Shown here piece by piece: positions 16,271 to 23,465 of a stretch of 64,000 nt of DNA. The stretch is from NCBI GenBank assembly GCA_030148725.1, contig JASBSU010000037.1, positions 1 through 64,000 on the forward strand, given 5' to 3'. Below the pieces are notes generated by a model. The model did not search any database. It was given only the letters and a program-made list of their open reading frames with translations, and had not been told where the DNA came from. The stretch comes from Hyphomicrobium sp. (GTDB taxonomy: Bacteria; Pseudomonadota; Alphaproteobacteria; Rhizobiales; Hyphomicrobiaceae). Positions within the stretch are counted from its first letter, which is position 1; each line of letters begins with the position of its first letter. The translations under genes and the position numbers were made by a program.

Positions 16271-16368
16271 TCTCCGGTGATGCTCGAGGGCTCGGGCGCC
16301 TCCTTTCGTCTCGAGCACCGTAAGTCGCGTTGGTGGCGCGAGCCGGAGCCTTTCCTCTTTTGTGGGTG

Positions 16369-17475
16369 ATGTCAGTGGCGCAACGCGGGGACCTTCACGA
16401 CATCAAAGCGCTGCTCCAGCAGCGCGTGCACGATGTCATCGGCAAGCTCGGGATCGAAGGCTATGCCGCCGGCAAATACTTCATTGGCCGCAATCCCGCG
16501 CGCAATGACGATCGCCCTGGCTCGTTCTGGATCGTCATTCACGGCCCCGACGCCGGCGTCTGGAAGGATGAGGCGATCTCCGACAAGGCGGCCGACGTCG
16601 TCGCCCTGATCGCCAACTGCAAGTTTCACGATCCGCGCCGCGTCAAGGAAGCGCTCGAATGGGCGCGCGAGACGTTCGGCATCGCGCGGATGAGCGATGC
16701 GACGCGCGCCAAGCTGAAGACGGAGGCCTCCGAGCGCAAGGTCGACTCGGAGAAGCAGCGCACGGCGGAGCTCGCCAGAAAGCGGCGCTTCGCTCTGGCG
16801 AAGTGGCTCGATGCGCCGCCGTCGATCGCCGGCACGGTCGCCGATGTCTATCTGCGATCGAGGGGCATCGATCTTTCCAGCCTGCCGCGGTTGCCGGGCG
16901 CGCTCCGCTGCCTGGCCGAGCATGAGCATCGGGACGATGAGACGGGCGAGCTCACGTCGTGGCCGTGCATGATCGCGATGATCTCGCCGAGCGATCCGGC
17001 GTCGACGGAAAAGCTGCTCGCGGTGCATCGCACCTGGCTGAAGCATGACGGCAGCGGCAAGGCTCCGGTGCGGCCTAACCGGCGCATGTGGCCGAGCTTC
17101 GCCGGCGGCGTGATCAAGATCGCGCGGGGCGATGGCGGGCTGTCGGTCAAGGACGCGATCGCCAAGGGACACAAGACGCGCCTGGTGATGGGCGAAGGCA
17201 TCGAGACGTGCGGCTCGATCGCCGTCGCCGATTATCGCCCGCGCGTGCAGGCCTACATGGCGCTCGCGAACCTGATGCACATCAAGATCCCGGTCGCATG
17301 CACCAGCGAGGTGCTGCTGATCCGCGAGAACGATGCCTCGCGCCAGGCGCGCGCGCTGTTCGACAAGGGAGCGGCGGCGATCGCCGCGCAAGGGGTTCCG
17401 GTGCTGGTCGCGCAATCGCATTTCGGTTCGGACCCGAACGACGCGCTAACCGGAAATATCAGCAGGAAGGGGTGA
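16369..17475 (+). CDS. TOPRIM-domain phage primase-like protein
   Basis: YLRSRGIDLSSLPRLPGALRC...LVMGEGIETCGSI...VLLIRENDASRQARALFDKGAAAIAAQGVPV. Confidence 0.75.
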   Translation: MSVAQRGDLHDIKALLQQRVHDVIGKLGIEGYAAGKYFIGRNPARNDDRPGSFWIVIHGPDAGVWKDEAISDKAADVVALIANCKFHDPRRVKEALEWARETFGIARMSDATRAKLKTEASERKVDSEKQRTAELARKRRFALAKWLDAPPSIAGTVADVYLRSRGIDLSSLPRLPGALRCLAEHEHRDDETGELTSWPCMIAMISPSDPASTEKLLAVHRTWLKHDGSGKAPVRPNRRMWPSFAGGVIKIARGDGGLSVKDAIAKGHKTRLVMGEGIETCGSIAVADYRPRVQAYMALANLMHIKIPVACTSEVLLIRENDASRQARALFDKGAAAIAAQGVPVLVAQSHFGSDPNDALTGNISRKG

Positions 17476-20021: not shown

Positions 20022-22010
20022 GTGAATGTGGTTGCGGGAAATGCGGCGCCGGCGCCGAACTTTGAGGCTGTCCGCGCACTCGTCGACGACGCTGAGCCGT
20101 TGCCGAGTGTGAGACGATTCCAAGGTGATCCGGAGCCGGGGCTGCCCCGCAACGGCATCAAGCCAGGACAATGGCATCCGGATGCGCTCGGGCTGCCGCC
20201 AGATTGCCCGGTGACAGCGCTTGGCGTGAACGGCGGGGCCAACTACTTCCTCGATCCGATCGGCCAGCTGGTGGTCTACGCGAAGCCCTATGGCCAGGCC
20301 GACACGCTCGATCTGTTCCGTGGACGGCATAACTACCTCTATTGGGCGTTTCCAAAATACTCGGCGTCGAAGGTCATCGATGGCGAAGACGGCGAGCAGA
20401 TGTTCGCTGTCGAGGGGTGGCGCAACGAGAAGGTGCGCGAGTGCCTGATCGCGGCGTGCACCGCCAAAGGGCCGTGGTCGCCCACCGATAAGCTGCGCGG
20501 TCGCGGCGCGTGGCTCGATGCCCATGGCGGCATCGTCCTGCACTGCGGACCCGACCTGATGGTCGATGGTCGCCGCACGCCGCCGGGCGAGTTCGACGGC
20601 AAGGTGTACCCGACCAGGCCGCCGTTGCCACGCCCCTGGCCCCGACCCATCGCAGCGACTGAAAATCCCGCAAAGTTGCTGATGCCGCTGTTGCGGACGT
20701 GGAGCTTCGCTCGTCCCGACGTCGACGCGCACCTGCTGCTGGGCTGGATCGGCGCGGCGTTCCTCGGCGCGGCGCTGCCGTGGCGACCGATCGTCTACGT
20801 CATTGGCGACGCCGGCACCGGCAAGTCGACGCTGCAGGAGTTCATCAAGGGCCTACTCGGCGAGTGGCTGATCCAGACCGTCGAGACGACGGCGGCCGGC
20901 ATCTATCAGCACGTAGGCCACGACTGCGTGCCGATCGCCGTCGACGAGTTCGAAGGCAAGGCCGACAACAAGGCGGCCGGCAAAGTGCTCGAGCTGGCGC
21001 GCCAGGCGTGCTCTGGCGGCCTGATGTTGCGGGGTGGCGATCGCCACACGGGCGTGCAGTTCGAGGCGCGCTCGACGTTCCTCTTCTCATCCATCAACAC
21101 GCCGCCGCTGAAGCCGCAGGATTTGTCGCGCATGGCCGTGCTGAGGCTGCACAAGCTGAAAGCCGGCGCACCGCCTCCGGAGCTCGATAAGCAGGTGCTG
21201 GGCAACATCGGGCGCATGATCCTCAAGCGCATGCTCGATCAGTGGCCGCGCTATCTCTACACGTACAAACAGTTCCGCGCCGAGCTACAGCGCGGCGGCT
21301 ACGATGCGCGCGGTCAGGACACCTTCGGCACGCTGCTCGCCTGCGCCGATCTCATCGAGCATGACGAGTGGCACGATGATCGGCTGAAAACGGCCGTCGA
21401 CGGCGATATGAAGCCGTGGTCGGAGGTCATGGCCGCGAACCTGATGGCCGAGTTCGAGGACCGCATCGAGAACTGGCGCAACTGCCTCAACCACATGCTG
21501 TCGGTTAATGTGGATGCGTGGCGCGGAGGCACCAAGTCGAACGTCGGCCAGGTGCTCGAAGACTGGTGCAAAGAGGTTGGCTATCTCGACCCCGACCCCG
21601 ACGAGACGAACGGCAATTACGCCAGTGAATACAATAATGACGTCAAGAAAGTTCGCTCTGTACTTGCACCCGCCGGCCTCGGCCTCGAGCGACGACGCGG
21701 CAAAGACGACTGGCTGATTGTCCCCAACCAAAATCCGATGACGCGCAAGCTGTTCGCTGACACGCCGTGGGGCGGCGAGATCGGCGCCGGCGTGTGGGCT
21801 GGCGCCCTCCGTCAGGGGCCGCAGGGCGGCGTGTGGGAGCCGGGGCAATGTACCGTTGCGGGCGTCAAGTCGCGCTGCACGCTGATCTCGCTGCGCGCCC
21901 TCTACGGCCCCGGCGGCATCATGCGTCCCGATGCGCCCCCAGCCCCGCCCGCACCCGTCTCGCCTGCGGGTTTCCAGCGCTCCCCCGACCCTAACATGGC
22001 TGAAAAGTGA
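20022..22010 (+). CDS. phage primase/helicase (D5/SF3-type ATPase)
   Basis: IVYVIGDAGTGKSTLQEFIKGLLG (Walker A), VPIAVDEFEGKADN (Walker B), STFLFSSINTPPLKPQDLSRMAVLRLHKL. Confidence 0.85.
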   Translation: MNVVAGNAAPAPNFEAVRALVDDAEPLPSVRRFQGDPEPGLPRNGIKPGQWHPDALGLPPDCPVTALGVNGGANYFLDPIGQLVVYAKPYGQADTLDLFRGRHNYLYWAFPKYSASKVIDGEDGEQMFAVEGWRNEKVRECLIAACTAKGPWSPTDKLRGRGAWLDAHGGIVLHCGPDLMVDGRRTPPGEFDGKVYPTRPPLPRPWPRPIAATENPAKLLMPLLRTWSFARPDVDAHLLLGWIGAAFLGAALPWRPIVYVIGDAGTGKSTLQEFIKGLLGEWLIQTVETTAAGIYQHVGHDCVPIAVDEFEGKADNKAAGKVLELARQACSGGLMLRGGDRHTGVQFEARSTFLFSSINTPPLKPQDLSRMAVLRLHKLKAGAPPPELDKQVLGNIGRMILKRMLDQWPRYLYTYKQFRAELQRGGYDARGQDTFGTLLACADLIEHDEWHDDRLKTAVDGDMKPWSEVMAANLMAEFEDRIENWRNCLNHMLSVNVDAWRGGTKSNVGQVLEDWCKEVGYLDPDPDETNGNYASEYNNDVKKVRSVLAPAGLGLERRRGKDDWLIVPNQNPMTRKLFADTPWGGEIGAGVWAGALRQGPQGGVWEPGQCTVAGVKSRCTLISLRALYGPGGIMRPDAPPAPPAPVSPAGFQRSPDPNMAEK

Positions 22011-22026: not shown

Positions 22027-22358
22027 CGGAACGGGTTGGGGGAAGCGTTCCGAGTTGCGTTCCGCTCCCAAGCGTCTGACTTAACGAGGGATTTCATCAT
22101 TTCGGAACGGCGGAACATCGGAACGTGGGTTGCGCATACGCGCGCGGGCGCGCGCGCGGATAAGAACCGCGCGCGTGTGTGCGCACGGCAATCCTGTTGT
22201 TCCGTCGTTCCACCGTTCCAAAGAGTGATATTTGTTAGTTCCGCCAATGGCTTACGCGCGGAACGGCGGCGGAACGGCGGAACGGTGACCGTTCCGCGGC
22301 GAGTAAAATACTGGGGTGATACGCGATGACCGCCGGAACGGGGAACGGTCTTGGAACG
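22027..22358. repeat. dense GGAACG/CGTTCC array
   Basis: Copies include 22027-22033, 22046-22052, 22058-22064, 22103-22109, 22119-22125, 22206-22212, 22214-22220, 22259-22265, 22270-22276, 22278-22284, 22290-22296, 22334-22340, 22341-22347 and 22352-22358. Confidence 0.9.
22152..22174. other. GC hairpin inside the GGAACG array
   Basis: GCGCGCGG-ATAAGAA-CCGCGCGC, flanked by alternating CG/TG tracts. Confidence 0.75.
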
Positions 22359-23018: not shown

Positions 23019-23273
23019 CGCTGCGCAACCTGATCTGAAATCAGTGGGTCGACGGTCGACCGCTGCGCGCCAGGCGCCAGGCGCCTCGATCCGCCCGCGG
23101 GGGGGTGCCCATCGCGCGGGCGCGCGCGGCCGGGGGGGTGCCCCCGAAACGCGCGCCTCTCAGTGGTTGCGCCCATGCCCCCCCACCGTTTTCCGGCGAG
23201 TTGGCACTACCCCTAGGGGAATTTTCGGACGGCGAAACTTGGAAGGGCGGGCTGGGGTCGGGGGGTGCGTTGC

Positions 23274-23465
23274 ATGACCTTCGAACTGCGAAAGCCGAAA
23301 CGCGACTACCGCCGCTTTCTTACCTCTGCGGAGGCTCGTGAGCTAGAGCAAATCGACCTCGAAATCACAGTTGTCGACGCGCGGCGCCGCGAGCTCACGC
23401 GCAAGCGCACCCTCGTCGTCAATCGCGCCGCGTTCCGCGCGCGCTACCACGCGGAGGCGCAATGA
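23274..23465 (+). CDS. hypothetical phage protein
   Basis: MTFELRKPKRDYRRFLTSAEARELEQIDLEITVVDARRRELTRKR... Confidence 0.55.
   Translation: MTFELRKPKRDYRRFLTSAEARELEQIDLEITVVDARRRELTRKRTLVVNRAAFRARYHAEAQ

Follow-up and report, generated by a model that had tools for sequence, protein, structure and literature searches.

A GGAACG iteron array beside a D5-type helicase gene is the probable replication origin of a Hyphomicrobium prophage

Helicases that recognise an iteron origin of their own are already known as a kind. The alpha protein of phage P4 is an SF3 primase-helicase that reads short repeats of its own origin via its C-terminal domain, and iteron plasmids (RepA, pi, RepE) carry repeated initiator-binding words beside an AT-rich stretch, with compatibility depending on the word. 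P4, however, has separate ori and crr sites, and its primase is fused and of a different type, whereas the locus described here combines a single array with a DnaG/Toprim-type primase. The initiators of iteron plasmids are not helicases but load DnaB, and their direct repeats of about 20 bp are unlike the array reported here. SaPI Rep and SCCmec Cch2 are of the same fold class as the helicase of our locus; their C-terminal domain binds iterons downstream of the gene, and they are thought to work as two hexamers (PMC7581432). For Cch2, a D5-family helicase, the isolated C-terminal domain binds the short downstream iteron AAGTG (PMC7581432), but only three iterons are present there, in a region that is highly similar between elements, whereas the arrays described below have 7–14 copies of many different words. 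PICI origins carry iteron sets on both sides of an AT-rich region (PMC6092414), and the iteron sequences of SaPIs and PICIs are given element by element (PMC7581432, PMC6092414). PLE satellites are likewise phage-related elements with an initiator and a proven iteron origin, but the initiator is a RepA_N protein without predicted helicase activity (PMC7145576), unlike the helicase considered here. Our literature search returned no description of this helicase family, of the GC-core layout, of the range of carriers or, above all, of so many words that switch in the manner of cassettes.

The window analysed here is a stretch of 64,000 nucleotides from a Hyphomicrobium sp. contig (JASBSU010000037.1, positions 1 to 64,000) that contains a prophage. 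Its likeness to the Rep-ori systems of SaPIs and PICIs, and to the pri-rep-ori of gram-negative PICIs, consists in a phage-related element with a D5/SF3-type helicase and short downstream iterons beside an AT-rich stretch (PMC7581432, PMC6092414). It differs from them in the helicase sequence family, which has no Pfam match, in the inner clusters, which lie inverted on the two sides of a GC-rich core and are supplemented by outer clusters, in a distance of up to 6.5 kb between array and helicase, and in its carriers, which are complete phages and linear plasmids instead of satellites; with genes for a portal/head-tail connector, a major capsid protein and TerL in the window, the prophage does not fall among the PICI/SaPI satellites. 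We consider it probable (about 0.83) that the array serves the prophage as replication origin and that the D5-type helicase encoded upstream recognises GGAACG through its C-terminal part. The features concerned are the following (no strand is given for features that are not strand-specific).

16330–17475, plus strand: primase with DUF7146 and Toprim_3 domains (Pfam PF23639, 1.5e-22; PF13362, 9e-9)
20022–22010, plus strand: D5-type SF3 helicase, proposed replication initiator (phrog_21086 / phrog_35358, AlphaFold2, Foldseek)
21390–22007, plus strand: C-terminal part of the helicase, residues 457–662, proposed word-reading domain (covariation)
21822–21881, plus strand: helicase residues 601–620, strongest covariation
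22027–22358: whole iteron array, proposed replication origin (counts, layout comparison)
22027–22064: outer left iterons (> < <)
22103–22125, plus strand: inner forward iterons (22104, 22112 GGAACa, 22120)
22132–22187: central alternating purine-pyrimidine GC tract or hairpin (folding, -40.4 kcal/mol)
22199–22219, minus strand: inner reverse iterons (22199 GTTCC, 22206, 22214)
22217–22241: AT-rich stretch, candidate melting site (72% A+T over 25 bp, the AT maximum of the array)
22259–22297: outer right iterons (> > > <)
22334–22358, plus strand: last three iterons, in the first TerS codons
22326–23018, plus strand: terminase small subunit gene, start of the late module; a neighbour and not the proposed reader (HMM homology)

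Between 22028 and 22358 (331 bp), 14 exact copies of GGAACG or CGTTCC are present, nine on the plus and five on the minus strand, together with three near-copies that lack only the final base (GGAAC at 22112 on the plus strand and at 22199 and 22238 on the minus strand). The remaining 63.7 kb of the window hold 42 copies, which gives an expectation of 0.22 for the array (Poisson P ~5e-21), and none of 20,000 Markov control sequences of matched local composition had more than six. No other 6-mer of any kind forms a denser cluster within the window. Since the full window shows no enrichment of the hexamer (56 copies versus 49 ± 7.6 expected), the signal lies in the clustering. Seven of the 18 close GGAACG pairs (gap of at most 12 bp) in the host genome (3.84 Mb) fall inside the array, and close pairs do not run together in a comparable way anywhere else in that genome, so that counting the motif over window and host confirmed the array as exceptional. 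The GC tract folds into a hairpin of -40.4 kcal/mol (RNA parameters) and is flanked by clusters in inverted orientation, and the final three copies overlap the first codons of the 22326 ORF, whose ATG is preceded by GGGGTGA. The sequence-only reading had described at least 14 copies on both strands within about 330 bp, placed left and right of a central GC hairpin and reaching into this ORF, and proved accurate in each of these respects. Repeats arising by chance or from codon bias were rejected as an explanation, as control loci and second-best clusters score lower. A search around the array for DnaA boxes and IHF sites found neither.

In the order, 31 of 398 genomes encode a homolog of the helicase, and further ones came from families and class; 56 helicase loci of up to ~17 kb each (19 kb for the window) were compared. 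An array of 7–14 copies on both strands, spanning 204–331 bp, is present in 50 of them and in each case is the top 6-mer cluster of its ~15-kb locus. Weaker arrays of similar layout occur in four further loci (L052, L117, L126 and L128), the sequence of L114 stops 2 kb past the helicase, and no array was detected with the helicase homologs L143, L079, L081, L083 and L158. Read along the helicase gene, nearly all arrays consist of an outer cluster, a forward pair or triple, an alternating GC-rich core, a reverse pair or triple, an AT-rich stretch and then another forward pair or triple. In 49 of the 50 arrays the clusters on the two sides of the core have opposite orientations, neighbours on the same strand are mostly spaced by 8–9 or 11–12 bp, and the AT maximum lies right of the GC core in most arrays and is mirrored to the left in seven. 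Comparison with related prophages, which had been put forward as a check on the array, thus returned an equivalent at 50 of 56 helicase loci in a constant layout. As in SaPI- and P4-type systems, the iteron cluster is near the helicase gene (50 of 56 loci) and an AT-rich stretch is found beside the iterons (most of the 50). The distance from helicase to array ranges from -4 to 6471 bp, with a median of 716 bp over the 50 loci, and a primase homolog is present at nearly all array loci.

The array is not confined to phages. In Arsenophonus nasoniae, five small plasmids that are linear or encode a protelomerase carry 13-copy arrays of the same layout about 50–65 bp behind the helicase gene. One of them, paNv_CAN18 (8.2 kb), has five annotated genes, encoding a small protein, the helicase, an HTH protein, an Rpn-type transposase-like protein and a protelomerase; according to the PLSDB gene table, which can be incomplete, there is no annotated terminase and the helicase is the sole replication gene. 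A linear plasmid of 8.2 kb with helicase and array is no more than a natural analogue of a Rep + ori plasmid. Arrays behind the helicase are also present on pLH84-a-B, on pP24_g and on a Leisingera plasmid, with only the 5-bp core GTAAC in the latter two. Most of the A. nasoniae plasmids (L152, L156, L157, L159 and L160) are listed as linear and several have a protelomerase, and the orphan TerS gene found on three of them suggests that they derive from N15-like phages or live as satellites.

Because the array is placed between the helicase and TerS genes in most close relatives, both proteins are candidate owners. In the window, the genes 3' of the array encode TerS, TerL, a head-tail connector (portal-like) protein and a GP7-type major capsid protein. 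The 22326 product alone gave no library match and tblastn of TerS against phages returned no matches, but an iterative HMM search identified it as homologous to a conserved TerS of 24 relatives. If the array were a packaging site (pac or cosB), TerS would bind the GGAACG repeats beside its gene and packaging would start here. pac sites are often found in or near terS, and in the podovirus-type relatives the array is a median of 47 bp from the TerS gene, even where the helicase gene is 2–6 kb away. However, the array does not go with the TerS family, as a pac or cosB site would. Three loci (L068-L070) carry another structural module, whose unrelated lambda-type terminase (TerS Nu1-like, TerL GpA-type) is encoded about 2 kb away, and their array begins 1–10 bp past the helicase stop; L115, L116, L127 and L142 also lack a TerS of the window type, and the 8.2-kb plasmid carries the array without an annotated terminase. 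Nine loci with a related TerL and without the helicase have no array upstream of TerS. Among ten phage records with distant helicase homologs, arrays are present in six (MinM1, phi1422, ZRG1, Acjo_20, MQ-4 and S-H1), that of Acjo_20 lying upstream of a fused primase-helicase gene, between divergent genes. TerS identity is also unlinked to the word, the proteins of L133 and L134 being 81% identical with different words and those of L061 and L063 44% identical with the same word, and no TerS segment covaries with it. We therefore regard a packaging site as quite improbable. On comparison of the loci, the array goes with the helicase module and not with the terminase, and as it tracks the helicase across unrelated packaging systems and onto minimal plasmids, an origin is the best explanation. 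The sequence-only reading had offered a replication-initiator or a terminase-recognition site, and only the former alternative is retained.

A role of the array as operator or enhancer, through which a phage regulator controls the switch from early to late genes, would account for its position between early (replication) and late (structural) genes in the window and most close relatives, and for the AT-rich 'AATAAAATA' motif and ribosome site 3' of it. Nevertheless, the array is not directly followed by a late operon in phi1422, Acjo_20 or the linear plasmids, the loci have no regulator in common but share the helicase and usually the primase, and an operator array would not need a GC core with an AT-rich side; an operator is accordingly given the same small chance as a packaging site. 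Least probable is that the iterons are centromere-like and serve the partition or incompatibility of a phage-plasmid at a place distinct from its origin, because although iteron arrays act in the partition of some plasmids and some relatives are phage-plasmids or linear plasmids, the loci share no ParA/ParB gene, the array is accompanied by the helicase (usually with the primase) and integrated prophages need no partition. Several points count against the origin reading: in most relatives of the window the array directly precedes the late genes, a position that would also suit a late control site, neither the prophage nor phi1422 shows a clear origin signal in its GC skew, and the helicase homologs listed above have no detected array.

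The helicase comprises 662 amino acids and has conserved Walker A/B motifs; no Pfam family was found for it. Foldseek searches with its AlphaFold2 model (pLDDT 81) gave MPXV E5, VACV D5, ASFV primpol, NrS-1 CTR and SaPI5 Rep (7ola) as best matches (E 9e-10 to 1e-7), and by its predicted fold the proposed initiator is a D5/SF3-type helicase. The model of the C-terminal part matched no DNA-binding fold in Foldseek (all E > 0.3), so that we do not claim a winged helix. On the model of SaPI Rep, Cch2 and the PICI origins, we propose self-loading of two hexamers and opening of AT-rich DNA for the prophage. The C-terminal part of the 20022–22010 product would recognise the short GGAACG word, helicase molecules would gather in two oppositely oriented sets on the inner forward and the inner reverse cluster that flank the GC core, the AT-rich stretch beside the clusters would melt, and the companion primase (16330–17475) would prime.

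While the layout is constant, the array word varies between phages. About 20 words were found, namely GGAACG in the window and GGGTACAC, GGGGACAC, TTGGAACA, GTGAGACAG, TTAGACAC/G, CTAACCG, GTAACC, GGTAACG, TGCAACG, GCAACACC, TAAACACC, GCGACAC, GGTAAA, AGAACC, GTAGCA, ATAACC, CCTAACG and others. Over the 50 loci, word similarity was compared with the identity of protein segments after removal of whole-protein identity. The best helicase segment comprises residues 601–620, a predicted beta-hairpin near the C-terminus. With 27 non-redundant loci, the helicase maximum was 0.35 (permutation p = 0.002, shared ancestry being only partly removed), and neither TerS (p = 0.45) nor the primase (p = 0.34) had a covarying segment. 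At loci with more than 1.5 kb between helicase and array (1.7–6.5 kb), covariation was retained (r = 0.43, p = 0.0005, with shared ancestry partly removed), which argues against plain linkage; linkage as the cause was rejected, as TerS is closer and yet does not covary. One window in the TerL tail also scored, but this tail is unalignable and the score is kept as a caveat.

Three word switches at matched core identity are accompanied by excess change in the helicase C-terminus. At a helicase-core identity of 0.85–0.89, the identity of residues 596–630 is 0.59–0.67 between loci with different words (L068 versus L069/L070, L133 versus L134), compared to 0.84–0.97 between loci with the same word. 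In L046 versus the GGGGACAC group, the excess change is at residues 470–590 (0.41–0.47 versus 0.57–0.63). The contrast is plainest for the plasmids paNv_CAN17 and paPv13, with the words TACAAC and CTAACA, which are 93–100% identical at DNA level in the helicase core, 65–87% in most of the C-terminal part, 43–77% in the array and again 92–100% directly past it, and whose helicase proteins differ most strongly over the final ~20 residues, where 7 of 20 positions are identical. As the drop in identity is limited to the C-terminal part and the array, both diverged as one block. Of the candidate binders that the sequence-only reading had named, the 20022 helicase, through its C-terminal part, is the likely reader of the word, whereas the 22326 product probably is not.

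Judged from these comparisons, the array is best read as an origin recognised by its own helicase, like those of the SaPI, P4 and SCCmec initiators, with a recognition word that switches unusually fast. More tentatively, with slightly less than even odds, the array may represent a widespread type of phage and linear-plasmid replicon in which the origin word and the C-terminus of the helicase make up a 'lock and key' cassette, open to exchange and diversifying so that co-resident elements replicate without interference. Different words are observed in co-resident elements, such as the two plasmids of Arsenophonus strain aNv_CAN and the prophage pairs in genomes G218, G314 and G336. The related prophages L047 and L051 of genome G431 both have the word GGGGACAC, which speaks against an obligatory difference between co-resident elements. 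If the cassette reading is true, the constant layout and the ~20 words would amount to a natural code by which a segment of the helicase recognises a DNA word of 6–8 bp. The origin reading would identify the origin and the initiator of a common uncharacterised phage replication module, consisting of helicase PHROG 21086 ('unknown function') and the DUF7146/Toprim_3 primase, and would offer a simple way of finding origins in such genomes. With a natural set of words and matching helicase tails, the specificity of helicase for origin is directly testable, and the set suggests how phages and plasmids that share a cell avoid cross-talk.

An array of its own is present in Vibrio phage VA-RY-3, which lacks the helicase: nine copies of AGGATA on two strands, mostly intergenic (L147:5873-6120), possibly a different kind of origin or control site. 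In the window, the non-coding gap between the TerS and TerL genes (23019–23461) contains four runs of at least six G or C, with none elsewhere in the 19 kb examined, and at least two such runs are found in the equivalent gap of 22 of 41 loci; as a candidate packaging site, this gap is preferable to the GGAACG array. Positions 22300–22326 of the window hold the AT-rich 'AATAAAATA'-like motif and, behind it, a GGGG ribosome site, a combination that many relatives share immediately before TerS and that is possibly the late promoter or leader.
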